Shown in pieces: positions 9,227-28,253 of a DNA stretch of 64,000 bases. The stretch comes from Antedon mediterranea. Its lineage: Eukaryota; Echinodermata; Crinoidea; Comatulida; Antedonidae. The stretch is from positions 25,356,070 through 25,420,069 of the forward strand of contig NC_092671.1 in assembly GCF_964355755.1 (NCBI RefSeq). The letters are read 5' to 3'. The notes below the pieces were generated by a model. That model did not search any database. It was given only the letters and a program-made list of their open reading frames with translations, and was not told the DNA's origin. Position 1 is the first letter of the stretch. Every line of letters starts with the position of its first letter. The position numbers and the translations under genes were made by a program.

Positions 9227-12112
9227 AGAGCCTTCTCCAATCAATATAGAAACATCAACGATTGATTGCTAACTTTGTTGGTCATCCTACAACCACTTTA
9301 TCACTGGCCACAATCTGCAACTGATGTATACACGCTCTTTGAAGTGGTAATGTGGAAACATGTCCACAGGTAATAACAAAGGCAACACACAGTAAAGGTC
9401 AATCAAGTGCTAATGACCTAATGTGTGTCACATGATCCATAGAACCATGAAGACCATGACTTGTGGTTCTAAAGTCTTCTTTAGTATTAAAAACTGACAG
9501 TAATATTGCTTTTATACAATAAGTACATTTATTGTGAGTAACCTGTTTATACGATAATTACATTAGTAGCAATATGTTTAGTTTAGTTTAAAACAACAAT
9601 ACTACTATCATATTAAGGAGGTGCTTATTTTTATACCTCCTTGTTTTGAAGTTGTAATAATTTTCATCCAATAGCGGTGCTGTTATTTATTTCCGATACA
9701 GTAGCCTGCTATACTTTATTCTGGACTTGCCAAGCATATTTTTTTTATAGTAAATTATTTTAGTGCTGCATCAACAATTAACGTAATCTATTTATCTATT
9801 ATAATATCTCAAAGCTGAAGTTTGTTACTCTATCTTCTCTCCTGCTGTTTGAGCTAGGCCACCTTTTAATTCCCATTTAGCCTTTCTGCTATGTTGAAAC
9901 AGTTTATGTTTAGACCAATTTTGGATGCAGCGTTTAGTAATTCCTTGCTATTTTCTCAACATGAATTCTCCAATTATTGTACATTAGAGGGTGAAAAGAT
10001 GACTTGAAAAAATAAGTATAAATGTATTGGTTTCTTTTAAAAATGTTGCACTAAATTTCAAATGTATTAATTTTTGTTTAATCTGAAATGGTTATGATTT
10101 TTACATCAACCCACCAATATTTTACCTTATAGAAAAATAGCTGTTAATGTACAAATTTAAATGTAAGTTGAACTCCTTTTGAAATGGGATTAACTTGAAG
10201 AAAATAGCCAAAGAGAAGAAACGCTACCAAAAAGTAATTTTCTTTTAAGCATTTAAAAATAATTTAATTAGCATTTTGAAAGTTTTAAACAAGGTAAAAA
10301 CCATGAGTGAAGTGATACTAGAAATACAATAGAGCCCTTCAATCCTTTTAAGGTGAACATTTTGTCATGGAACGAACGAGTGGTATTAAATGAATCATTT
10401 TAATGTAATGACAAATGGAAACTTCATTACACAAGGTATACAGTATATAAAGCAAAATACAGTGTATACAAGGCAGTCAAAACTGAAATGTGTACACTAT
10501 GTTGGATCCTGACACTGTCCCCTTTATAGAGGTTCTACTATAGACACAGGCTGAACCATTTTGTACAATGTACTATTATTCAATATCTAGCTTTAGTGAT
10601 ATTCTGTAACTAAATACATTTGTATTCTTGCATTCAATTACTGTAGCATATACAGGTAGATGTTTGATTTCTTAACAATTTGTTTTAGGAATTCTTATTT
10701 GAAATAATTTCATGTGAATTCTAATAATAATAGGAGTAAATTTTCTTTTTGTTGAAAAAGCACACTGAATGTTTGTGAAATGTACAGTAGTAAGTACCAT
10801 ATGATTGACTCCCCTTTTTTTCTGTGCGCAATTTCATATACAGTATACCAGACTATATTGCTATTCTATCATCAAATTTGTAGTTGATAGTAAATATATA
10901 TATATAGATTTCATTATTTAATTTTGCATTGAAAGGTGCTGAAAGTTAGTGTTATTTTATCCTATGAATCGTGCAATTTGTATCTTGACAGTAGCTTAAG
11001 ATTTTTAATATTTAGTATTATATATATATATATTTTTAGTCAAGTACAAGCTAGTAAAACGTTTAAATTAAAAACAGTTAACCTAGTTTTGATTAAACTC
11101 TATGATTTAAACCTTTTGAAGAGTGAAAGGAAATTAAAAATTTTAAACTTATTTCAAACTTTATTGTTCATCTTCAGCACTAAATAATACTGTTACAAAG
11201 TATATCTAGGTGCCAATACAGTTGTATAGTTCCATGGATGAACGTTTGAACTTAATGAGTGCATAATATATTGGTAATCAAAATAGTATACAAATAATTA
11301 ATGTTTATGCATGATGGTGGTAAAACAACTGACAAATAAACAACTATACTAAACAGAGACAATTCTTTTGAGGGTGTAAGTCTATTAGGCCTATTACTAT
11401 AGCAAACGCAGCTTTAAAGATGTATTGTCCCACTGAACAAAACGATTTATTGTTGTTGAATAGGCTTTAATGTATAATTATTCACTTTTACAAAATCCTG
11501 GATAGAAACAAATTTAGTTACCTGATGAACTAAAATATAAAGAAAAAAAATCAATTGACTCGGAATGAATGGATTTTTAGTTATTTTAAACATTTATTTC
11601 TTTTATACGCAAAACATTTTATATAACATTTGTTTAGTTTAATTTTATACATGCATGTAAATTGGCTTACTTAGTGTTTGATCTTTGTATTTCCTGAAAA
11701 TGTAATACCATAAATTATTTGAACAGTTTTTATGAATGTAATATTATGTAATCATGTTTTGTAATTTTACCAATGCTTACACTTTACATGAACATTTCGT
11801 CTTCATGGCATTTAAGTGATACGGTTTTTAATAAGAAATTGTATCCATTTTTTGCGACGTTTTTCCTACAGTAGTATTTATAGCAACAAGTATTTATCCT
11901 GCAAAATTGAAGTTATTTGAAGCTTTGAACCTATCATACTATATAAGATAGAACATGCTTTAATTATTAAATCATACATTTTATTGTAATGTTTGTATTC
12001 TCTGTCTATCTCTGCCAAATGTCCATCGCCTAATTACGTTCTTAACAAGTTGTTCATGTGCGATTGTTTTACTTTCCATAGAAATTAACAAATTCATCAC
12101 TCATATGTGAAT
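9227..12112. other. Zinc-finger gene 3' flank and intergenic region, no gene seen
   Basis: AT-rich sequence with no convincing exon. The start presumably is the 3' UTR of the zinc-finger gene; polyadenylation hexamers such as aataaa near 11335 are present but unproven. Short (TA)n tracts lie near 10893-10905 and 11021-11032. A single copy of the MITE end motif ttaaagatgtattgtccc is at about 11414-11432. Confidence 0.4.
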
Positions 12113-13075
12113 TTATACGGCATGCATGTTATTTGACATTCCGTATTTCGAAGCAACTTCAAATGTGTTTTTGTTGACCCTCATTCTGCCCTTTAATATA
12201 ATATAACCGAGTAAGAAAGCTATTGTGAGTAGTAGTACAAGAACAGTATCCTTGTAGTTTTTGTGCGAAATCTTGTGAATTGCAGTTGTTAACAAACGAG
12301 GTGATTTCTTTTTAGCGAAGTCACAAAATGAGTACAGTACAATAAAATGTTCATTTACAACGTAAAGTAGTTCGCTTTCAGCATATCTTGAAGCAACTTC
12401 ATCTTGTACTGTTAAAGTTTACACACATTTGTAATGGAGATGCTCTTTCCGATACCAGAATCTAAATATGTGTAGTATTTGATTTAGTTGTCATGCAATT
12501 CTAATATTTCGTCCCACACTAGTTCAGGTTCAGGGTTTGTCTTTTCACTTAAACATATCACAACGGCATCTTCTCCCATCTTGTAAGATGACGTTGTAAA
12601 CTGATGATTGACATTCATGAGAAAGGAAACTGTAGTAGGCCTATGTTGCATTTTTTATGAGAGTTGCAACCAGCATAGCAAAGTTAAACGTTCTATGTAC
12701 TGTTAAAACATTCAAATTTACACATTTATGAGAAAATATGTAGAGGTGACTGCATTTGAACATATATTACAAGTAAACGCGAAAAACGAGTTATACAGTA
12801 TTATACATTTTGTTAAGCCTGTGGACAATTGATACACCCGTGTCTGCAGGCCTACCAATAATGATATTGTGTCAATCATTAATCATTTGAGTGAACTCGC
12901 TTATGTGTGATGTTTTTTTTGGTTTTCATCTTTCAAACCACTGGATACCAACCGGTTCTAATTCAGTTCTCCTGTCCCACTTTAATTCAGGTTCAAGATA
13001 TGTCGTTTCACTCAAACATATCGCAACAGCTTCTTCTCCTATCTGATATGACTTTAAACTGTACAATTGGATAGT
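12113..13075 (-). pseudogene. Immunoglobulin-domain membrane protein remnants
   Basis: Three coding-like blocks lie on the minus strand. Block 1 (12926-13075) reads SYQIGEEAVAICLSE...LEPELKW. Block 2 (12484-12623) reads SYKMGEDAVVICLSE...PEPELVW and then TAA. Both have the Ig B-strand Cys, Pro and C-strand Trp pattern and are clearly duplicates. Past the TAA (12484-12486) the same frame continues as Ig-like sequence (DSGIGKSISITNV) and then shifts frame. Block 3 (12113-12407) resumes with TVQDEVASRY, a second Cys (YSFCDF), then a hydrophobic segment TVLVLLLTIAFLLGYIIL followed by basic KGRMR, as in a single-pass membrane anchor, ending at TAA. In-frame stop plus frameshift indicate a pseudogene. 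A functional gene with unusual splicing is less likely. No Met start or signal peptide was found. Confidence 0.45.
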
Positions 13076-13215
13076 CGACGCTTGAACTGTCAACGATCAA
13101 CGACGATCGTTTGAAAAACGAAATGATGACAATAGCAAGTACTTTTTCCTGTTAAAATCGATAACATTTCAATGTTTACGTAATGATCACCGATTATTGT
13201 TAACGATAGCGTCGA
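13074..13215. mobile_element. Short inverted-repeat element bounded by GTCGACGCT
   Basis: The ends gtcgacgct (near 13074) and agcgtcgac (near 13206) are reverse complements, and AACGAT-type words recur in both halves. About 140 bp, no ORF. Probably a small MITE, but it could be a chance palindrome. Confidence 0.3.
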
Positions 13216-14338
13216 CAGGAAAACAGGCTTAAGTTCTACAGGATCGTAATTATAACCCAAGGTATAGGTGTCATGTTATAGGTGTGGTTGTTCAGAGGGT
13301 GTTGTTGTCCTAGGGGCATAGCAGTTATCCTATAGGGTAGTTTTCCGGGTGGGATTTGTCCTACTGTAGGGGGTTATTGTCCGGGTGGTAATTGTCCGGA
13401 TACGCATTAACCCATTAAAGTTTTCTTACATTTTTAAAAATCTATGTTTCAGACTTGAATCACACTCATTTTCATTGTTAATCAGCAAACTGGCCTAGAA
13501 CAAAATAAACACAATGACACACCTTGTTTACGTTTATTAACGTTTAATTAAAATCAACAGGGTTCTTATGACAAACTATCTGCATACTAATGCAAACAAA
13601 TTCTCACAATTGATGTCTTTTTGCCAGTGAAGTTGACAACTTTACAATTATAAAAGGTTGAGACTTCTTTACCCTTTGTTAACCATAGCAGACATTTATG
13701 TACGGGTATAGAACAAATTTCACTCGGAAACCTTGAATGATCGTATTCAAAATACCATAGTCTGACTAGCAGAAAATCTCGGTCTTAAATTTGCCAGGGA
13801 TTATCCAAGACTGTTCATTTTTTTTTGGTTATCTTAGGATATTTTATAGATCATTTTTTGTGTAAAGCACTTCCTGTGACTCGGTTTGAATGCCACAGGG
13901 GATTGCACAGTATTAGTAACATATTACCATCCAGAACCAACCAATTTGTTACTGTTTGATTATTATTACATTATCATTTTGTGTATATTCCATGTAAGTT
14001 TGGTGTTTCCAACTGTCACATGTTGGTCACAAGTTGTAACTTCTTGCAACTATTGTGTTGTTCTTTTTAATGAAATAAAGTGAATAATAGTTATTCAGAG
14101 TCTAGGAAATGACCAAAGTATTACTTATTTCATCACATGATTGACAAGATATCATAGCATCACCTTACTAACACCACTACCAGGGTTTTAACCATTAGGG
14201 GTACATTTTGTAGCCAGATGAAAAACTATATATTGAAATTAAAAAATAAAGTGAATACAATCTTGTAATTTCAATAATTGAAATTATAATCAAAATAATG
14301 CAATGTCATTCAGGTTGCCATGATATATATTCTGATAT
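13216..14338. other. NOP58 3' flank, no gene seen
   Basis: No supported exon. On the minus strand this should hold the NOP58 3' UTR. A minus-strand AATAAA (tttatt at about 13533-13538) is one possible polyadenylation signal, roughly 800 bases past the stop. Short open frames here lack codon or homology support. Confidence 0.4.
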
Positions 14339-17300
14339 TTAATCTTCCTCTTCTAATGTCTTCTTTTTCTTTTTCTTCTTTTTCTTTTCAGTGCTGACCT
14401 GAAGTATAAAAATGATGAAACATGGTCAACACAAAATCAAGTTTTTTTGTAATATTACAAATCAGTTTTACTATAACTACAAATTTCATTATAATTTATT
14501 AGTATAATACACTCAATCAAGCTAAAAATAATCCATGTCATATCCAGATATATTTTCTTTTTACAACTTTATTTAATACAATACACTATGTGAAAATAAC
14601 TTTTGCTATTCAAAGTTTGACTCCTGTAATTGTAAAAGTTACCTATCATATCCTGTTTAATAAACAAACAAGATCAACATTTTCAAATTGTTTGTTTTGT
14701 ATGTAAATGTTAGTAAGCAAATAGCTGTAACCAACCTGTTTTCGTGGTAAGGTAAAGTAATTCCAAAATAATTAATAAATGAATTAAAAGTACGCTTATT
14801 AAAATTGATAAGAAAAATAATGCTAAAAAAAGGAGGAATGGCATTTGGACTCCATCATTCTCAAGTTTACTTGAAGATTCAAGCAATTCAATGAGACAAA
14901 CACAAATTAAAGGTCAAAGTTTAAAATGACAATAGGTCAATTATCACCTGCAATGCTAAACAAAGAGCTTAGATTTTGCAGGTTGTAGATAAGGCATTTC
15001 CTGAGTTACGCTAAAATAAGAATAAAACCTATTCTGATTAACATTATGGTCTTAAATGTTGCCCTAACAACATTATTGAATGTCCGAAAGTATTCTTAAT
15101 AATGACTGCTGCTGCCAAAAAAGAATGTAACTTACTGGGGCTGGTTCTTCTTCCTCTTCCTCCTCCTCCTCCTCTTTTGCAGCTTTCTTTTTCTTTTTCT
15201 TCTTTGGCGTCTCTTCTGAAAACACATGTTAATGCAATCGGATTAAAACACCGAAATAAATACAGGATCCACAAATTAATTCCCAATAAATTAAGAAAAG
15301 AGTAACTTGAAATTAAGACACGGAATACACTGAGATTATGCCAAATTGATTTTGGTGACAATTATTGGGACAATAATTGTATTGCCCTGGCAAACCAGAG
15401 AGGTGAAGCGGTAACTACTTTTAAATTATTTTAAGTTACCTTCAACTTCTTCCTTCACTTTCTTTTTTTTCTTTGTGCTTCCTTCTTCACTGGAACCATT
15501 TTCAAGTTTCACTTTCACACGTTTCGTACCACCATCTTCTTCATCATCAACCTCTTCAATTTTACGTTTCTTGGTCGCACTGGATGGCAAGGTTGAGTCA
15601 AGAGCGGGGTTGTACGTCTTCACTTCGCTTCTGTTTTCGTATTTGTCAAACTTTGCTTTAGCTTTTCCGGTTCCACTTATTCTCCTCATCTGAAATTATA
15701 AATAGAGACTGGTATTAAAAAATTCATCAAATATATTTAATTTTACTACCATTTAATGAGTGGCCGAGTGGTTAAGACAGTGGAACCGTAATCTATTGTC
15801 TTATGGAAAGGGTTCAAGACTCACTAGCTCCAAAGTTCTAGTAGTAATGAGTATTCTCGGTAAGGACTATGAACCGTAGGTCAAGTGTTCTAAAAAATGC
15901 TTGGGTACACTTTAACGAACACCTAGTACATCTTTCAAGACGAGTAGGGGGTTAGTACTAGGTCACACAAAAATTTATTGAGAGGGTCAACATACGTTGC
16001 CATCCTCTAACTCCCGCATTCTGCTTTCCAACTTGGCTCGACAATTAATACCGATCTCTGTGGACGTTTCATCTGAAAGGGCATCAACACGAATTGCCAA
16101 GGATGCCTTCGCTGCCAACATTCTGGACATCTGTAAAAAAAAAAATTTGTTGTATTTTACCATTATCAATTTTGTGCTCAACACTGTCCATACAAAAACA
16201 AAACTGACTGATGTAAACCTTGTGTGCTCACATTTATCCATACATGTTCTGTTTAAACATCAGTTTGTTTCTAACCTGGGTATGTGCCAGCATGTCATGA
16301 AATAAGACAGCCGACGACCGTAAGGTTAGAAATAGTTTAATATAGCCTGTATAAACCACCTCAAGATACGGATATTCTTCAGGGGTGGGTGTTGTCAGGC
16401 ATAAAAAGTTAAAAACTTCTTTACAATTCTTATTATTGGTTCTTATATAGTGCTTAATGCTAAGCACTGCCACATTATTACCTTAGTCATTTTTTATATG
16501 TGCAGAAACATACTACACATGTATATTGTGCAGCTAGTAATCAGCGCTGTTTGTGGTTTGATCTTACCAAGTACCCATTTGTACAACTTGGTGGCTGGAG
16601 AGAGGCAAACACGAAAGGACACAAGCAATGCAACAAGCATTGGATTTTAACCGATCAATCCAAATGCACCTCATGCTCTTAAGACCAATTTACAGACAAG
16701 TGGCAACGGTAGGCGGAAAATCTGTATAAAATCCTCAGCAGAAACCACCTGTCCGCTCCAAGCTGTGTGTAAATGGTCAAAAGGAATAACAGATTCTATA
16801 TTTTAATTACTGTTACCTCTCGTCTGTTTACATTGGCTGTTATGCTATGTTTGTTGATCTATTCTATTATCTAAAGATTGTATTTCGTGAATAGATTTTT
16901 GGAGTTTGGATCATATTATAGTAGCTTTTTCTCGATACACATACCTTTCCTTTGTTTCTTTGATTTGATTGTCCTACCAACGATGCATGATAGATGAGAC
17001 CATATTTAGGCGTGTCTTTCTTTGTTTTGAGAGCTCTAAACAATGCCTTCTCAGCTCCAAGAATTTGTACCGTTGATGCTGGATGTTTAGCAAGATTCAT
17101 CAAGGAACCTAATTGACAAATAAATAATCTGATAATTTACATATGTAACAAATCTAGTAAAATGTGGATACGTTTCCGAAATTGACATTTTGTATCGTTG
17201 CACAAGTAGAGGGCCTCAACTTTTTTAGGCATTGTAAATTATTTAAACCTTATTTTTATGTATTTAGTTATGGAAGATCATCTGTTAGATCAGTAATGAT

Positions 17301-20300
17301 GTTCAGTATTTTCTATAGAATTTTATTTGATGATAAATGTTCTAACATTTAACAACAAATAAAAAAAACCTTTAAAAAGGTTTTTTTTTAGTTTATGGGA
17401 GATATCAAGTTTTAAATAAATTTAGTATTACATGCTTAAAAAGTGGCCACATCCAACTACTGGTGGTATGAGAGGTACCAAATGCATTATTAGAAAAATA
17501 ATTTGCTTACGAGAGGCACTCCGACAAGGTGGTTTAACCGTGGTCAGTTGACCTTGAGGTCAATAATAAAGTTTGACTTGACCAACTTACCTGCATGTGA
17601 AATAAGCCTTGCACCAACCAATTCACCAACCAGTGTAGTCAGATTTGGTGCGATGGCTGTCATACGATTCTTCAGGTAGTCATAAAGTTGTGCTCGATAT
17701 TCAGAGATTTCAATAATCTATAAAAAGAATAAAATAAATATTATTGATGTGGCATGTGGCATGCAAAATTGTTATATTTTCCGAAATATATAAAACATAA
17801 GTTAATGTGATTCTTTTGCAATTATTTTAGGCTCGGATCAAGCATGACTATAAAAACAAAGCATTTTATACATGCATGTTATTCATACAAGGCCAGCACA
17901 ACCGGTGTTTATGAGATTGAAAACAAGTTTGGTATGGTACCACTAAGATTATTTTCAACATACAAAAAGCAGTTGCTGATAACAATTCAAACAATATAAC
18001 TTACATTAGTATCGAGAGAAATATGTGGTTTAATAATAATACTGGTACAAAAACAAATTAGAACAACTAACCTGATCACATAGGTAAAGGATGTTTATAA
18101 TGTCATGCTCAGAGATCTCTGTACCCATTGATATCTCTGCTGCAGATTTAACCTGCTCTTCAACCTCTTCTGGTAAGATCTTTGAAAGGTCTGTGGTTGC
18201 AGTATTTGTACGATCACCTGGGAATGAAATAAATATATTTGTTTATTTGTAACCATTCATTGCCTTCCTTATTTAAAGTAAAATATGTATTAGTTCACTG
18301 CTTGGCAACAAAGGTTGATGGGAAGTAAACTGAGGAATTTTAAAAAGGGATTTTTTTGCATGATTTAAAATGAATCTATCTCAGTGGTAGTGACGAATCT
18401 CTTTTTCTAACATCACATTTAAGTCAGTCGACAGAATATACATCATTGATAGATCATTATCAATCAACAAAAGCAATGTATTTATATATACATCATTGAT
18501 AGATCATTATCAATCAACAAAAGCAATGTATTTATTAAGCAAAAGCAGCATTTTACTTATTTACTATTCCATAAGGATAATTTTTATTTTACATCCTTCT
18601 AAAAAATATACATTGGAAAAGAGAATACTACTTTCACTTTTGTATGATCAACTACTAACGCATAGCATGTTGTAGATAACCCTGTTTTTCCACAATATAG
18701 AAAAGAATTGGTAAATGCACTTATATTTCATTTGTTTAAAAAGGTAAAGGTAATCATTGTCATAACCCAACAGAGTGTATTATTTTATTAAATATGCTAA
18801 GCCTTAGGCCTTATTATCCTGGCCTAGAATTTTGTTGTTTTAGCCTAGAAAACATTGATTGAAATGGTTGTCGTGGTAGACAAAAGACATGCCGGCATTG
18901 TTTGAATGCCTACGCTAACTTTGAGAGCTGCACTGCAACTCACATACATTGACGTACCTATTGTTTTGACAGTCTTTGAGTAAGCCAAGTTATCAGTGAC
19001 AATTTTTCCAAGTTCAGGAAAATGCCATCCATACCATTCTCGACAACGCATAATATAGTTGTTTAACTCTTTGTCTAGATCATCAAGTAACGCTAAAAGA
19101 TGAATATCAAATTAAGTCAAAACAAATGATAAATGGCATGTTATTTTATTTAATACATTAAAATTTGTACTGTACTAACAAGGAAGTCTTTTTTTCAACA
19201 TAAAAATGGTAATGAATAAAAACCTTACTCCATTTAATACTACTTTAATACCAAGACAAATTTTGTCCCAAGTTAGAGTAACTTTTAAATAGATAAAGAT
19301 TTGATACATTAATTCGAGGCAGCTTTAAGCTACAGTCATCCTGGATACAGAATGGTGGTGAAAAATACAGCTAGTTTTAATACTACTTAATCGTAAAGTC
19401 GCGTGGTACAGTGGCGAGTTTGACAGAACTCTGCTCAGGCTGCAAGATTATTGGAATATGTTTCATAAAAAATGAATGGGGTAATAATGTGAAACACTTA
19501 AAAAGCTTTGTATTTAAAAGCCCTATATAAAAACAACATATTGTTTACCCTAACTCATTCCAGATTCTATACAAAACACGGTGTGAATGGTAGAAACCAC
19601 CAGACCAAATCTAGGCTAATATGAACATAGCTTTACATTCTCATAACACCTTGTCGTTTCTGATTAATGTCATTCAAGAGATTTTTTATCCCAATGAAAT
19701 ATGATAATAATAATGATAGCTATCATTTAGGTTTATACACTTACAAATGGCTTGAACAATCATGGTATCTACTTTGTCAGGAGAGAACTTCAACTTGTAT
19801 CTGGATAGACTATTTGAAGAGAAAGAGGACATCATGAGAATGGCAGTGATGGATGAATAGGTCTTAATGAAGAAAGATCATTATTTAACCTTCAATCCAG
19901 TATTCTCATTTAAATCATCTGTCCCTAGTAGTTCCTTCAAACTTTGGACATTGGTTCCCACAAGAGGAGCTTTCGAATTAGCGATACAAGGAGGCAGAAG
20001 TCCAAGTATGTCAACTATACATGCAGTTGGATGTCTTCTGCATATTGAATATTACCCGTTTCAATATTACAGGACACGATTGTCTTTGCAACACGGTCAA
20101 AAGTGCCTACATAAACTGCCTCCAGGCAATGCCAAATCCTGGAAGTTTAGTTTTATTCGTATGCATGCTGTAAATTGGATGCAAAGTTTTAAAAGATCGC
20201 TAAGTGTAGTACGCGATCAAAAGCTTTATTTTTAATGCCTGTCACAAAAGCAATAAAATGTGGTGGGTATTCAGAAATTACTGTTGGTTTTAATATTTAG

Positions 20301-23300
20301 TGTACTGTAGTTCATTATTGATATATAGTTCTTTGAACAGAAGAAGGCCGAACTATGCAACTAAGAGGCCTTAGCCTAGCCATTGTTTAGATATAAATGG
20401 CTATATGTTTACTTACCTATGTGCTAACCCCAACGTCATAGCTGTTAATTCTTTCTCTGGTAGGCCCGTTACAAGGCCTTCAAATTGTGAGCGAATACCT
20501 CGCATTAGTTCCTGTATACTGTTATTGTAAACACAATTCAAATCAAATTTTTCCTGGTCATTGAAAGAAAAAATTACAAGTCATAGATAAACTAATGATA
20601 CATTTGTAGAGGAAATATAATAGCCTAAAATATGGGCCAAACAAATTGTTGCCAAAGCAGTGTCAACATAAATTGCTGAAAAACTACTACTAGGGTAAAA
20701 ATAGAGGGTACTATAGGAATTTCACTCGTGCATGCAATTTATATTGAAAGCCCTACAAACCCTTGCAGGGACCAAGTAATTGTGAGAAAATGTGGATTTA
20801 TCTCAGTGGTAGTGACGAATCTCTTTGTCTAACATCATAGCTAAAATCAGTCAACAGAATATACATCACTGATAAACCCTTACTAGAACTTGTATTCAAT
20901 CACATCACACAATAGAACAGTGTCTACATTCTATCTTAACTGCAATGGTAAATAATGGCTTATAAAAGGACACTAAAGTATCTTGGATATACACTGCAAA
21001 AAGCATGCACGTTCTGGCTAGATCTGGATGAAAATTGAAACTTATAATGGAAGTTTTTACACAACATTTACCTTTATTATATTGCCTAGTTTGGCATCAG
21101 CTACAGCCAGCTTATCAATGGCCTCTTTTGCTGCCATCTTTTTTAACATTTTCTTCAATCCTTTACCAAGTTTACCCTCAACAGCAGCCGTGGCAGCTAA
21201 AAATAGAAAAATAAAACCTGCATTCCACACATTTTCTCTTTCAATCTCATTATTTATCACTGTTCTTAGCATCCACCACTCGGAATTTCCGATCACCACT
21301 TTTATGATGCTGACCACCAACAATTTTTTTTCTCTAAAAAACCTATTTATGTTTTAGTTATGCACACAGTATAATTAAGACACTATGGGGTTGAATTACA
21401 ATTACAATAAGCATGCTAGCCACAAAATGATCAGACAAAGGTTTTAATTTGTATCTCCATTGTTAAGTTGGCCAGCCCTAGCTTAGCATTGTTTTCAAAA
21501 CTGTGAAGGCCAGGTACTACTCATGACATGCTGGTGAGAACCCAGATTAATTTATAGATTTGACAATTTTAGCATTTGAATTGAAAAAATTTGTGATCTA
21601 ATAATTTAGCTTCATGCATGTTTATTTCTGTAGACTGTTGGATTTGGGCTATTCCAAAAGACATTCATGGGGGCCCAGCTGAATATTTGTTTACTGTACC
21701 TGCCAATGCCTCTCGAGTGTCATCAAATTTCTGGAAATGTTTGAGTTTTACTCTAAAAAATTAGAAAAATACATTTATAATTATATACTGTAAAACTAAA
21801 TATTGAAAATATGAATTCAAACTGACAAAATGTGACAAGTAACAATTTATTACAAATATATTCCACATAGAGTAGAACCCGTTCTTCATGACCCCTCAAT
21901 TCAGGGATCCTTGGTAAAAGGGAAATTTTCAAGTAAAACGAACATGGAGAAAAACCTAACCCGTATTCATAGGATGAAGGGCACAATTAATTCGTTCTTA
22001 AATATAGGTTCTACTGTACATATTGATAGAAATCACGTTTATTAGTTTTCTTTTAACTCAAAGTAGATATTCAGAGTGGATAGTTTATAATCAATTGCGC
22101 ATCAGACGGCTTTTCCTATCAAGAAAATTGACTCATCATTTCAATCTACAACCAGAGTTACTTTAAAAAAAAATGCTTCACAGAAATGCATGATGGTAAA
22201 TCACTTACACTTGGTTTGCATCGTCAATTGTTTGAAAACTTTTGTACAGGTTATCTACTTCTTTTAACTTTTTTTCATCTAGAAGCTGAAAATAAAAATA
22301 ATATACTGTTGTATAAATTGAACACAAAATAACATAGCATAAAAGAGGAAGCATTGTCTTAGTCGCACAACCTTGGCAACAGTAGCTCATCATTAAAAAT
22401 ATTTCCACGGCAAGAGGATCGCGGTTATTCACTTAAAGAGTTGTTAGGTAACTTAAGCTCGGCATACAGTATTTGCCATCTAATTTTTCGACTGTGATTA
22501 CAACATCGTTTTATAATTTTTTATACTGTAGACACTAGATCTGCAATTGTTGACGTTTTGCAAAAATAATGCATATATATTTAAAATTTAAAAACATTAA
22601 CCCAGGTTATTTCTTGTCTTAAATGTGTGTTCTAAGGTTAATTATGATAAAAAGAAAACAATGCACTAAGTAGCTTACATCGAAAGTTCTATCGTAGACG
22701 TTTGTAGGCCTAGCTTAGTTGTGTGGCAGTAACATACAAACATCGTATGTATTTATTTTTACATAAAATATAATCCGTGACCTTAAATTAGGAAAAAAAA
22801 CTATAGGTCTAGTGTCTTTAACATTATTCTGTCAAGTTATTAATGTTACTTGTATTATATCAAGGTTTGGTTTATCAAATACAACAAAAATATCAAAACA
22901 TTGAATTGTGGAGTATCTCTATTAAAATTTCGCAAGAAAATGCTTGTGCAATTTCAAATTTCGTAAATCATACAGATGTCACTAGACCTCGACAAGGCAT
23001 TTTTAGAAAAATTTCTCAAGCCACCGTGGAGCCCTTTAAAAATGTTTTGTGGCCCAAATTTGGGCAATTGGCAAGTAAAGTCTGCCTATTCCATTGTACT
23101 CAATAAAGGAAATATGGCAAGTAAATGATTAATTTATGAATGAGTTTATTTAAATGATATCTGGGACATCACAAATTGATCAAATATCATGGTTTTGCTG
23201 CTTCTGTGGAAAATAAATAAAGTGTTAGCCCTACTCTAGAAATCATGACACCATCATACAAAAATATCAGCAAAAAATGAGTGATCAGAAATCAACTTGA

Positions 23301-23672
23301 ACAATCAATTACGCATCAGACGGCTTTTCCTATCAAGAAAATAAATTTCATCATTTCACTCAATAAAATCTTTCTAAATTTAGCCTTTTACTTGATGGCA
23401 TCCTATGATCATGGAGGTATAAAATAAATTTTATACCTCCATGCTATGATGGCCATCCTGCCCAACCACGTGCCTCATCCCAAACGGCAGCATGCCTCAT
23501 GCCTGGCATTGCCATTATGTTATTGTATGTTTTAGGCTAGCTAGGCCTGGCCCTTTTTAGTCTAATAATTATATTCAATCAAGCTGTTTAAACATAAAGT
23601 TATAATGTTTATATTTATTATATTTACCTTAAATACAGCGTATCCTGCCGGCGATTCGAATAACACCAACAT
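14339..23672 (-). CDS. NOP58: NOP58, core box C/D snoRNP protein, 14 exons, 532 aa
   Basis: Coding exons in order of translation: 23672-23628, 22285-22209, 21752-21700, 21196-21072, 20553-20417, 19809-19745, 19092-18958, 18217-18072, 17717-17591, 17108-16945, 16130-15996, 15689-15440, 15215-15136 and 14398-14339. They sum to 1599 nt in one frame, and every intron is GT-AG. The protein starts [15 protein letters not shown], typical of NOP58. It then has the coiled-coil region, and the conserved Nop domain ([60 protein letters not shown]). The tail is Lys/Glu-rich ([16 protein letters not shown]) and ends TLEEED. Human NOP58 is about 529 aa, so length is as expected. It binds box C/D snoRNAs with NOP56, fibrillarin and 15.5K in the nucleolus for rRNA 2'-O-methylation and processing. 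Introns 1, 2, 4 and 7 contain C/D snoRNA-like sequences. Confidence 0.97.
15757..15975 (+). mobile_element. tRNA-derived SINE in NOP58 intron 11
   Basis: The head resembles a Leu/Ser tRNA. There is an A-box-like tggccgagtggttaagac at about 15762-15779 and a B-box-like gggttcaagactc at 15810-15822. The body (ctcggtaaggactatgaacc, acctagtacatctttc, gagtagggggtta) matches the copy at 6485-6665. The element lies antisense to NOP58 and ends about 20 bases from exon 11. Confidence 0.7.
16430..16680 (+). mobile_element. SINE-like repeat (family B) in NOP58 intron 10
   Basis: It shares an ordered set of words with 49592-49905 and 34826-35075: 'ttatatagtgc', 'gaaacatact', 'gcagctagtaatcagcgc', 'ttgatcttaccaagtaccca', 'gagagaggcaaac', 'caagcaatgc'. 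The end ttggattttaacc resembles a degenerate B box read on one strand. Decayed. Confidence 0.6.
18372..18456 (-). ncRNA. Box C/D snoRNA candidate, SNORD70-like, NOP58 intron 7
   Basis: Read on the NOP58 sense strand it has a perfect terminal stem (atctatc with gatagat). Next come C box ATGATGT (18440-18446), D' box CTGA (18424-18427), C' box GTGATGT (18410-18416) and D box CTGA (18381-18384). About 85 nt. The sequence just before the D box, TTCGTCACTACC, is a 12-base complement of the conserved 18S rRNA stretch GGUAGUGACGAA (recalled from memory). By the D+5 rule the paired base is the A of GGUA, which I equate with human 18S Am512, the SNORD70 target. Human SNORD70 also lies in a NOP58 intron. 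The 3' end is about 155 nt upstream of the intron acceptor. Confidence 0.85.
18434..18534. repeat. 52-bp tandem duplication overlapping the snoRNA 5' end
   Basis: The sequence starting tatacatcattgatagatca is present twice in a row, near 18438 and 18486, each running through caacaaaagcaatgtattta. The duplicated unit includes the C box and 5' stem of the snoRNA in intron 7 but not its D box, so only one complete snoRNA results. Confidence 0.75.
19396..19535 (+). mobile_element. Decayed SINE in NOP58 intron 6
   Basis: A tRNA-like head (cgtggtacagtggcgagttt, with a weak B-box-like ggctgcaagatt) is followed by a tail, acacttaaaaagctttg to gccctatataaa. That tail resembles CR1-type retrotransposon 3' ends, as at 25235-25280. 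Boundaries are approximate. Confidence 0.4.
20793..20878 (-). ncRNA. Box C/D snoRNA candidate, second SNORD70-like copy, NOP58 intron 4
   Basis: This is a paralogue of the candidate at 18372-18456. On the minus strand it shows stem ggtttatc with gataaatcc, C box GTGATGT, D' CTGA, C' box ATGATGT and D box CTGA (20803-20806). The same 12-base 18S guide TTCGTCACTACC stands before the D box. The D' guide region differs from the first copy by few bases. Both copies keep boxes and guide while their linkers diverge, which argues for selection. Confidence 0.82.
21866..22020. mobile_element. pogo-like MITE in NOP58 intron 2
   Basis: The left end tagagtagaacccgttc and right end ataggttctactgta are imperfect inverted repeats around about 150 bp without an ORF. 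The GTAGAACC terminus resembles pogo/Tigger-type elements. Assignment rests on the ends only. Confidence 0.45.
22093..22146 (-). ncRNA. Box C/D-like snoRNA candidate, NOP58 intron 2
   Basis: On the minus strand there is a C box ATGATGA (22133-22139) and D box CTGA (22102-22105), with TTGATAGGAAAAGCCG in front of the D box. That guide complements the 28S rRNA stretch CGGCUCUUCCUAUCA (from memory) at 14 of 15 positions, with one internal A-C mismatch. A near-identical copy lies in intron 1. The terminal stem is weak and no clear C'/D' pair is seen. It is short, about 54 nt. Confidence 0.6.
22540..22823. mobile_element. Internally deleted MITE (family M1) in NOP58 intron 1
   Basis: It matches the elements at 30319-30873 and 48094-48726 in order: 'gacgttttgcaaaaataat', 'aaaaacattaa', 'tcttgtcttaaatgt', 'ggcctagctta', 'aacatcgta', 'ttaaattag'. 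The central third is missing. The right end gtgtctttaa fits the family terminus. Confidence 0.65.
23302..23360 (-). ncRNA. Box C/D-like snoRNA candidate, NOP58 intron 1
   Basis: Second copy of the intron 2 candidate. C box ATGATGA lies at 23348-23354 and D box CTGA at 23316-23319, with the same guide TTGATAGGAAAAGCCG. The linker between the C box and guide differs from the intron 2 copy, while boxes and guide are identical. The terminal stem is poor, so this could be a pseudogene copy. Confidence 0.55.
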
Positions 23673-24900
23673 CTTATATATTATATTTATTTTACCGTAT
23701 TTTAATAACAGTTGTTAGCCGCAACTCACTTCGACAACATCCAAGCGATGAAAGGGAATTGCGATTTGTGAACACGCGGTTTGTCGAAAAAACGCGACTC
23801 CACATGTTTATTCTATTCACAGAGAAGAGCGCATGTGCAAAACGACTTGTGGTTACTAAGCGTCTGTAGAAAAAGTCTATCATCAAATTACTTACTCCTC
23901 TCTCTCAAGAGGGCTAGGCCTAGTTGTAAACTTTTCAATCTTTTCCAGAGGGAGAGAGAGGAGAGAGAGGCAAGTTGAAACTTCAATTTGAATATATCAT
24001 CCACTTTATCGTAATTTAAAAAATAAGGCAGGCCTAGGCTAAAGCTGTTCGGAGATACCGCCTATCTAACCTATCTAGCCTACGCTGTCTAGCTAGGTAG
24101 TAGTAGCCTAGCCTACTGGGCCTAGGCCTATAGATATAGGCCTACGAATTACGATCATCTCGGTGGCGTTTCATTTCGGTCGCGTGTCAATTTTCAACAA
24201 TATCGATCGTGGTGTATGGCGCGTCAATTATGCATAAAGCATACGAAAATGGATGCTATTGTAGGATTGAGACTTAACTGTCCGATTTAACTCTCTTTCA
24301 GCACTAAACTTATTATGCTAATAATAAATAAAAGATTAAATAAATAGATAAATTAAATAACGTCTGTAGATGTAAATAGAGGTAAACATTGTTAATAAAT
24401 AAAATATTAAATACATAGGCCTAGATAAATTAAATAACGTTTGTAGATTTAAATAAAAAGGTTTTAATTTGAATGATGAATGTAAACATTTGTATATGCG
24501 TTTTTGTTTTAAAAATGAAAGGATTGAATTGAAAAACAGTGTGAAACGAGTTTGTTTTAAATTACATTAACGTATCTATGTTTTGTTTTTAAATATATGT
24601 AAATATTTGTGTATATGTTTTTGTTTTAAAAATAAAAAGATTGAATGATCATTGACAAAAGTGTAAAGTGAGTTTGTATGTTATTTTTCCCGTCAGAAAC
24701 AAATAGAATATTTACAAAATATATCAAAATATAATGCTTATAAAAACATTTAAAAAAAAGTTAAACTAATATTAATAACATACTGTTTTTAAAATATTTA
24801 TTTAAATATAATGATTATTATATAAAATCATTTTTAAATAAACACCCTAAAAATAATAGAGACTACACTTCGATCTTTAATTAGAGCTTACAGTGTACAG
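23673..24900. promoter_or_regulatory. NOP58 upstream region
   Basis: This should contain the NOP58 transcription start. No TATA box is evident. A purine-rich ggagagagaggagagagagg tract lies near 23949-23970, and a dense cluster of TAGGCCTA/CTAGC words at about 24029-24148. The rest (24240-24880) is AT-rich with nothing recognised. Promoter status is inferred from position only. Confidence 0.35.
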
Positions 24901-25090
24901 TACAGTCAACTCTCCCAATACCGGACACCTTTGGGCCAGCCAAATAAGTCTGGTTTTCCGGAAAGTCTGGTATTCGGAATGTGTTTTTAATGGTAAATAT
25001 AAATTTGGGACCTTTTGGTCCTCAAAAAAAGTCTGGTATTGGGAGAGTTTCTGGTTTTCAGAGAGTCCGGTATTGGGAGAGTTGACTGTA
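24901..25090. mobile_element. pogo/mariner-like MITE flanked by TA
   Basis: The ends are TA-CAGTCAACTCTCCCAATA (24901 onward) and its mirror tattgggagagttgactg-TA (to 25090). That gives about 26 bp terminal inverted repeats with the TA target duplication expected for Tc1/mariner/pogo elements. Subterminal 'gtctggtattgggagagttt' is repeated inside. No ORF of its own. Confidence 0.8.
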
Positions 25091-25234
25091 CTGCATTGAG
25101 CGGCGTTCCATAGAAATCGCCGGAAGTTCGATTTACCGGAAGGGCGACCGAAATGAAACGCGACCGAGATGATCCGATACCAGGCCTACTAGCCTAGCTA
25201 GTAGTAGTAGTAGAGAGGCCTATTAAGTATTATA

Positions 25235-25745
25235 GGCCTACCAATCAATCAATCGTTCGATTTATATAGCGCCATTCCAACATTATTGCTCATGGCTCTG
25301 TAAAAAATCAGAAAAGGTGAGTTTTGAGTAGTGACTTTAATAAAGTGACTCAATAATGATGTGTGTTTAATGTTCAAGGGTAGGTGGTTCCAGAGCCTAG
25401 CCTAGCCTAGGTCCAGCAACACTGAAAGTCCGATCTCCCCAACTATGTTTGCTCCTTGGAATGTCCAGTAGCACCTGATGACTAGATCTTAGTTCTCGCT
25501 TTCCCTTCTTGACTGCCAACAATTCTGAGAGATATTTTGGAGTGCAACTATTTAGGCATCGGAACACCAGCAGCAGGATCTTAAATTTAACACGTGACTC
25601 CATGGGTAGCCAATTTAACTCTTTGAACAATGGTGTGACGTGATCATACTTCTTGGCACACATCACCAAGCGAGCTGCCCAATTTTGCACCTTCTGGAGA
25701 GTCCGCAACTGCTTCTTTGGCAGACCATACAGCAGGGAATACCCT
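25235..25745 (-). mobile_element. CR1-like non-LTR retrotransposon, 3' fragment
   Basis: Minus-strand translation gives the C-terminal end of a CR1-type reverse transcriptase ORF: SLLYGLPKKQLRTLQKVQNW, AARLV, HVTPLFKELNWLPMESRVKF, RSKHSWGDRTFSVAGPRL. After GPRL the frame is broken by ten extra bases (ctaggctagg), then continues as WNHLPLNIK. The 3' end ggcgctatataaat followed by gattgattgattgg (25235-25275) is a typical CR1 tail. The 5' part is absent: a dead, 5'-truncated copy. Confidence 0.85.
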
Positions 25746-25940
25746 ACTACCCTACTACTACTAGTACTAGGCTAGCTAGTTAGGCCTAGCTAGCTAGGCT
25801 ACTCTACTACTCTAGTTAGTTAGCCTAGGCCAAACCTAAAATACTAGGTAGCTAGGCCCTAACTTCTAACTAGGCCTAGATAGTAGGCCTATAACTACTA
25901 CTAGCTAACTAGGCTAGCTAGGTAGTAGTAAGTAGACTTC
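25746..25940. repeat. CTAG/TAGGCC-rich low-complexity tract
   Basis: Nearly all of this 195 bp stretch is built from the words CTAG, CTACTA, TAGTTAG and AGGCCTAG. Because CTAG and AGGCCT are self-complementary, many small hairpins are possible. No ORF. Confidence 0.65.
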
Positions 25941-26087
25941 CATGCACAGCCACATGTTAAGGAATATGAATCTCTTTATGATTTTAATATGGTTCGAAAT
26001 GATATTACACAACAACGATTAGACAGCAACTGTGCAAGAGTCCAACTAATAAAATCGGAATGATCAATTAATTGAACATTTACAGCA

Positions 26088-26451
26088 TAAGGCCCATACA
26101 CTAGGACGATAACGATCGACGATAAATAGACAAATGTGCATTTTTAATACATAAACCAAAAGAAATATAAACAATTCCTTTGATGAAAATTATATTTTCA
26201 CACGTCCAATCAAATGACGTCAAGATTAGTAAGACCAATAATATCGTGACAATACAGCGATTTTATTGTTTTTATTTATCATGACGTCATTTGATTGGAA
26301 TTTGAAAAACATTATTTTTATCAAAGACAGCATAAATGATTATCCTATAGGTCTATAACGAAAACCTTTCTAATTTCTTTTGGTTTATGTAAAAAAAATG
26401 CATGCTATATATTTATCGTCCGTCGTTATCGTCATAGTGTAATTAAGCCTT
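26088..26451. mobile_element. MITE with about 75-bp terminal inverted repeats
   Basis: The left arm (taaggcccatacactagg, acgataacgatcgacgataa, acataaaccaaaagaaat) and right arm (atttcttttggtttatgt, ttatcgtccgtcgttatcgt, catagtgtaattaagcctt) are inverted copies. TGACGTCA-related palindromes lie in the centre. No transposase. Confidence 0.75.
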
Positions 26452-28253
26452 TATACAAAAAAAAAATAAATTGATTACGAAGTTACATGTCATTTTCACC
26501 TATCACCAAAAAACTAACCTTTTCAACACTAATTGTTACGAAGCCAATTTATGTTATATATTTCATTAAAACTGAACTTTACGGTAAATGAAGAGTAAGT
26601 ATCAGTTATCTAGTTATATTATTCATATTAACAGTTAATATGAATAATATAACTAGTAGGTCTATGAACTTGCGTCCAGACACAGAACTGTGACATTAGT
26701 ATCATAAATGTTGAAACCACTTATAAAACCTTTTTTTAAAGAAAATATAATTGTGTTAGGAGAAGGCTAATAAACAAATAGATAATGTGCAAACCTTTTT
26801 CTGGATTAATTAATGGAGCAGGCGTTCCTAATAATCTGCTGCTGCTACCTAGACTGATTGTTCACCTTCTGACGATAATTGATTGGACCCCCCCCACGGC
26901 ATCTGATAACCAAAAAAAAATTTACCAGGACTGTTTCAATGATTTAATATCTGACGGCGTATTATTATAACATTGGCCTAGATTGACAGTCAAAAGAAAG
27001 TCAATGTAAATACCTCCCTTTATGTTGACAGAGCCAAAATAAAGTTTTGACCATTATCGAATGATTATTTGACAGTGACCTATTATAATACCGGCCTGGT
27101 TGACAGCAAAAACGAAGTTATTATTTATTGAACAAGATTTTACAGATTTCCGTCTACATCTCAATAATACTGTATTATCAGCAAAGGCTTTCATATAGAC
27201 TCTCTTCTCCCAGACGTTTTTTAGGTCCAGCAGCTACCTATAAATTATAGTCGAGTTTCCAAATTCACAAGCGCGAAAATCTGTATCTGAATGGACCATG
27301 GATGGTAGAGATGTGGATTGTGGTGTGTTTTATTGAGTAGATTATTTAAGTAAGGTTTTTTTAAACATCGTATCGATATCAGCAGAAGCAGGTTCACTTA
27401 TGGTACAGTTATGTGTGCTTTTCTCCTTTGCCTCGTACGGTGTGCACCAACACCTCCCCCCACCCCCATATTTTGTGCCACTGTCTCTTTTCATGGTGCC
27501 TAATCTTTCAGTTACTTGGTGCAGCACATTCTCCTCTACTGCACTGCTGCTACTTAAGTTCTACTTTTACTCATTATCCGTTACATGATCACATTATCAG
27601 GTACAAAAGATAAGACAGCACTTTACACATATTTCAAAATTGTTAGGCCTATTTCAAAATCATACTATAATTACTAAGAAGCATGCAGTATTTGCACAAT
27701 CTGTTCTGTCATGCAAATCCTCCAGTGCATGTTAAGTTAGAACTCTCCTCTGATAATTCGATAAACCACTATTAAAGCTTAGGTACAGGCATGAATTTTA
27801 AATACAATATCTTGTTAATTGCACACAAATCAAATATTTGTTACAGAAATCAAGACGAAAAAACATGAATTTCCCTTTAAATGGTCAACTACAAAATTCG
27901 GCAAAATTCTGCTATAAAAACCAGGAGACTTTTTTTCAGGTTGTTACAACTCCCTGGTTTAACCTAATGTAATAACATGTCTGGTGACTCCCTAGAAGGT
28001 GACAAAAGATGGTAGATATACGGTGGATAATTTTTGATAGCATGAAAATAAAACTGAAGTTAAATAAAAATACCAGAAGTTATTTACGGTAATTTATTAT
28101 AACTTAACTGTTTATTTTTCATAGTTTTTTAAAAATGCCTCTCTATTTACAACATTTGTGTACAAAAGAATAGAGATTTTACTGTGTATTTTGAACTGGT
28201 TCACACAATAACCCCTGTATCAGGGGGATTACCACCTATCTGATAGGACACAT
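26452..28253. other. Intergenic stretch, no gene seen
   Basis: AT-rich. A perfect short hairpin (attaacagttaatatgaataatat) sits near 26620-26655. Open frames around 27342-27613 occur on both strands of the same C-rich patch, and neither has homology or splice support. Nothing else recognised. Confidence 0.35.

Follow-up and report, generated by a model that had tools for sequence, protein, structure and literature searches.

Whether two short elements in introns of a NOP58 gene of Antedon mediterranea are members of the SNORD70 family, and what they would guide, is the question raised by the 64-kb stretch of DNA analyzed here (the window). An earlier note on this DNA had placed two SNORD70-like C/D snoRNAs in NOP58 introns, each with a full set of boxes, a terminal stem and a 12-base guide to 18S rRNA, and gave the same host and target for vertebrate SNORD70. 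Our data point, with a probability that we put at roughly 93%, to two intron-encoded SNORD70-family C/D box snoRNAs that are paralogous through duplication within NOP58 and would guide 2'-O-methylation of A472 in 18S rRNA. The interpretation offered by the note is as a whole partly supported: the SNORD70 identity, the 18S target and the NOP58 host stand. Its inventory was right for the two SNORD70 copies, left their strand (minus) unstated and missed two further C/D RNAs in introns 1 and 2. The sequence itself shows the family match, the boxes, the guides and stems, the host gene and where in its introns the RNAs lie.

The NOP58 host gene

Exon-by-exon assembly on the minus strand gave a model of 490 residues in 12 exons, running from 23672 to 15426, in which all 11 introns have GT-AG borders.

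15426..23672, minus strand: NOP58 host gene, coding part, with exon choice guided by reading frame and homology, and GT-AG borders

The best PDB match of this protein in a phmmer search is 'Nucleolar protein 58' 7mq8_SB (E 4.8e-210, residues 1-481 against 1-484), in line with the host named before. We take 7mq8_SB to be human NOP58 because its Ser167 and Leu172 fit a paper on human variants (PMC12800697). Nop-domain matches in the genome number 12 and fall at three places, namely NOP58 on C2 and one locus each on C4 and C1. The C4 and C1 loci are presumably NOP56 and PRPF31, as read from the translated stretches, and for this reason NOP58 looks single-copy. In 9-kb pieces around these two loci, which possibly do not span the whole genes, no snoRNA family matched at E 0.1; the 9 Rfam matches in the pieces around the Nop-domain genes are each to a microRNA model below its cut-off. 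A scan for C/D RNAs found two weak candidates (9.7 and 8.0) in the piece near the C1 gene and none in that near the C4 gene, which again may not hold the whole gene. The gene does hold a client RNA of its own, as remarked earlier, but this is nothing special, as NOP58 binds C/D snoRNAs in general.

Two SNORD70 copies and their 18S guide

The whole window was scanned with 4227 Rfam families at the gathering threshold. Only two matches resulted, both to SNORD70 (RF00575) and both full-length (model positions 1-89 of 89), with E-values of 5.7e-6 (18458-18369) and 3.6e-5 (20882-20791). The covariance-model check that had been proposed thus came out positive for both copies, at the places given before and with the boundaries listed here.

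20791..20882, minus strand: SNORD70 copy a, in intron 4 (518 nt); RF00575 51.4 bits, cut-off 50
20863..20869, minus strand: box C of copy a, GTGATGT
20808..20819, minus strand: guide of copy a, 12/12 Watson-Crick pairs to the genome's own 18S 469-480
20803..20806, minus strand: box D of copy a, CTGA
18369..18458, minus strand: SNORD70 copy b, in intron 7 (740 nt); RF00575 55.0 bits, cut-off 50
18440..18446, minus strand: box C of copy b, ATGATGT
18386..18397, minus strand: guide of copy b, identical to that of copy a, with the same 18S pairing
18381..18384, minus strand: box D of copy b, CTGA
18436..18535, no strand assigned: exact 50-nt tandem duplication repeating the 5' stem strand and box C of copy b, with the second box C at 18496

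All of the boxes that had been claimed can be read in both copies: C (RUGAUGU), D' (CUGA), a C'-like UGAUGUU and D (CUGA). In both, box C ends in U rather than A, as it does in the Rfam consensus. Terminal stems of 9 and 8 pairs close the C/D boxes, and when the letters of the stem strands were shuffled an equally stable stem arose in 2/1000 cases for copy a and 0/1000 for copy b. Copy a lies 237 nt and copy b 151 nt ahead of the 3' splice site. These distances count against the snoRNA reading in that they are longer than the optimum of 40-50 nt, which is quoted from the branchpoint in PMC10234308, where most expressed snoRNAs are also said to lie further away.

The guide, UUCGUCACUACC, adjoins box D and is intact in both copies. 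It forms 12 of 12 pairs, with zero G-U, with positions 469-480 of 18S (numbered from the first base of the Rfam match), whose sequence is GGUAGUGACGAA; the 18S used is the genome's own, from an rDNA unit (L008) in which it scores 1681 bits. The fifth base upstream of box D (D+5) faces A472 in both copies. Searching the genome for guide plus box D (17 bases, at most one mismatch) returned only the two SNORD70 places, and the reversed control pattern returned one match. For the D' guides of the two copies, no ungapped match of at least 11 pairs, up to two G-U being allowed, turned up in the L008 unit, where the 28S is incomplete. That 28S breaks off at model position 2348 (L008 5226-9678; G000 C2, ~15.715-15.720 Mb), and the stretch after the break holds several open frames of at least 150 codons. 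The break point is presumably the usual R2 retrotransposon site.

An independent C/D scan, made without Rfam, combined box C, box D, terminal stem and rRNA guide at a guide score of at least 12. Along the sense strand of NOP58 this score was reached at four places only, the two SNORD70 copies and the two SNORD49-like RNAs described below; the same scan gave zero candidates on the antisense strand. Dinucleotide shuffles of the gene reached it even once in 3 of 300 cases. The rest of the window gave one candidate above 12, at 11311 on the plus strand. Its 15-pair guide to 28S includes three G-U, it has no family match at the gathering threshold, and it is probably a chance occurrence. Because this candidate outside the gene scores 12.9, the guide score alone is no proof of a snoRNA.

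The two copies are identical at 76 of 90 aligned positions, with guide and box D unchanged and the terminal stems paired in each despite their sequence differences. The 100-nt flanks have 44 (5') and 26 (3') identities, against 21-50 in 28 random 100-nt pairs from the same gene; the 5' value is close to the upper end, and in copy b the tandem repeat falls within the 5' flank. No third copy appeared in a search of the assembly (354 Mb, 18 contigs) among the 60 of 222,684 first-look candidates that were scored.

The tandem repeat, which could be recent or polymorphic, bears on whether both copies are functional. One of them, more likely that at 18369-18458, might be a fading pseudogene while the other alone makes the snoRNA, given that an exact copy of box C and of the 5' stem strand lies 50 nt upstream and may compete for box D. 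The upstream box C could then join box D of copy b in a longer unit of 116 nt, and this stretch folds no better than its shuffles (z -0.41; 56 of 200 as good), an ordinary fold. Against this, the unit at 18446-18381 keeps its boxes, guide and stem, copy b has the higher Rfam score of the two, and the differences between the copies spare guide and box D. We consider the loss of one copy unlikely.

For two functional snoRNAs, expression, processing, snoRNP assembly and methylation are what we infer from established C/D snoRNA biology. The NOP58 pre-mRNA would be spliced and the lariats of introns 4 and 7 debranched; the introns would then be trimmed back to the snoRNA terminal stems, the C/D and C'/D' motifs would be bound by SNU13, NOP56, NOP58 and fibrillarin, and the 12-base guide adjoining box D would direct 2'-O-methylation of A472 in 18S.

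SNORD49-like RNAs in introns 1 and 2

When positions 12000-27000 were scanned against Rfam at a permissive threshold, two more C/D RNAs appeared, both matching RF00277 below its gathering score of 37, which is why we call them SNORD49-like.

22069..22143, minus strand: SNORD49-like C/D RNA in intron 2 (456 nt), D' guide 22106-22121; RF00277 32.5 bits, E 2.9e-4
23283..23358, minus strand: SNORD49-like C/D RNA in intron 1 (1342 nt), D' guide 23320-23335; RF00277 31.8 bits, E 4.6e-4

In a genome-wide search with RF00277 the intron 2 and intron 1 RNAs score 19.9 and 20.9 bits (E 0.15 and 0.08, respectively), and of 51,717 candidates the 60 that were scored gave no other SNORD49-like place. RF00277 matches at this permissive threshold also arise in 8 of 14 prokaryote controls, none over the cut-off. 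In the neighborhood of NOP58 we also observed a long inverted repeat at 26178-26326 (69-nt arms, 80% complementary, 11 nt apart), which resembles a microRNA precursor model far below the cut-off and is probably a small transposon-like repeat.

The D' guides of both RNAs pair with 28S UCGGCUCUUCCUAUCA through 9 pairs, one A.C mismatch and 5 pairs, and their +5 position is the bracketed C of 28S UCGG[C]UCUU. The two RNAs would probably guide 2'-O-methylation of this conserved cytidine through the D' guide. The target is present at C2:12.112 Mb, in a locus fetched by an independent 28S pattern (L009; L013 is the same place), and absent from L010, the other of the two loci which that pattern found. 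It is also present at C2:26.642 Mb (L014), a place found by a pattern that itself contains the target. The target-containing pattern occurs at two places in the genome, one of them L009, and either may be the main 28S gene of this animal; in L008, the unit that carries the 18S, the 28S stops short of the target point.

The two RNAs are identical at 62 of 81 positions, and their flanks have 27 (5', 100 against 60 nt) and 33 (3') identities. Their terminal stems differ in sequence yet pair in each, as UGAGUGA/UCACUCA in one and GUAGAU/AUCUAC in the other. Shuffles gave equally stable stems in 13/1000 cases for the intron 1 RNA and in 65/1000 for the intron 2 RNA, the latter a weak result.

These elements could be unrelated C/D RNAs that share the SNORD49 target by convergence, as their scores below the cut-off, both in the permissive scan and genome-wide, and the A.C mismatch to 28S would allow. 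We regard this as doubtful, since both align to RF00277 over its full length with the same architecture, in which the guide sits at D' and +5 faces a 28S cytidine. In the chicken table of PMC2653536, U49 too has a 5' (D') guide, and its target is a 28S C. The presence of four C/D RNAs in one gene raises a further possibility, namely that the NOP58 snoRNAs act in cis as sensors of the level of NOP58, such that snoRNP assembly on the unspliced intron would alter NOP58 splicing. NOP58 itself binds C/D RNAs. A precedent is described for SNORD86 in NOP56 (PMC11028025, PMC10324135). Ordinary GT-AG borders of the NOP58 introns speak against such sensing, as do the unremarkable fold of the intron 7 snoRNA with its duplication and the perfect rRNA guide kept in both SNORD70 copies; SNORD86 is described as an orphan (PMC11028025). 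We rate cis sensing as very improbable. The broader proposal is to be given just as little weight: NOP58, in this lineage a host of four C/D RNAs, with one duplicated pair for an 18S site and another for a 28S site, would tie the supply of guides, and perhaps NOP58 splicing, to the level of the NOP58 protein through a SNORD86-like feedback.

NOP58 and its snoRNAs compared with known systems

We take the chicken snoRNA HBII-234 to be SNORD70, and chicken HBII-95 to be SNORD11. In the permissive Rfam scan of 12000-27000 no family named SNORD11 matched at E at most 1, and a genome search gave no match to SNORA11. The chicken table lists HBII-234 in two isoforms, with 18S-A-473 as target and introns 3 and 6 of NOP5/58 as host, and HBII-95 also in two, in introns 8 and 9 of the same gene (PMC2653536). 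Sequence model, guide, 18S target adenosine, host and copy number are the same in chicken as here, which backs the vertebrate host and target given in the note. The introns differ, 3 and 6 in chicken against 4 and 7 here; it is our conjecture that they correspond, if the chicken numbering omits the first exon. In human NOP58, exon 7 is r.500_634, or 135 nt (PMC12800697). Exon 7 is also 135 nt here and lies at the same place after one residue of alignment offset, and therefore intron 7 here corresponds to human NOP58 intron 7. The literature searched gave no position for human SNORD70, and among the open-licence papers listed in our searches we found no NOP58 snoRNA of an invertebrate.

The ancient host-guide pairing that had been suggested fits the two data points, chicken and the gene described here, though SNORD70 may instead have duplicated independently. 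It is usual for human C/D families to have copies in the same host (PMC8178906). SnoRNA genes may occupy different introns of a host, or different hosts altogether (PMC3349704), and snoRNAs have been argued to be mobile under constraint (PMC3511168). In this setting the arrangement is ordinary, a known host with further members of an established family, arisen by a known kind of duplication, and it changes no mechanism; it provides another duplicated SNORD70 inside NOP58 beside the chicken record.

SNORD86 in NOP56 is likewise a C/D RNA hosted by a gene for a C/D core protein, but it is described as an orphan acting in cis (PMC11028025), whereas SNORD70 here has a perfect rRNA guide. What is added beyond the known systems is the tandem repeat at copy b and the SNORD49-like pair in NOP58. 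This pair resembles SNORD49A/B in its putative D' guide to a 28S stretch and in the presence of two copies, and differs in scoring below the Rfam cut-off and in host: human SNORD49A/B lie in intron 2 of SNHG29 (PMC9622897) and chicken U49 in intron 2 of mRNA CR391615 (PMC2653536). New here, if a modest point, is this placement of SNORD49-like RNAs in NOP58, unlike the human and chicken hosts, and it is relevant to how stably snoRNAs remain in a given host.
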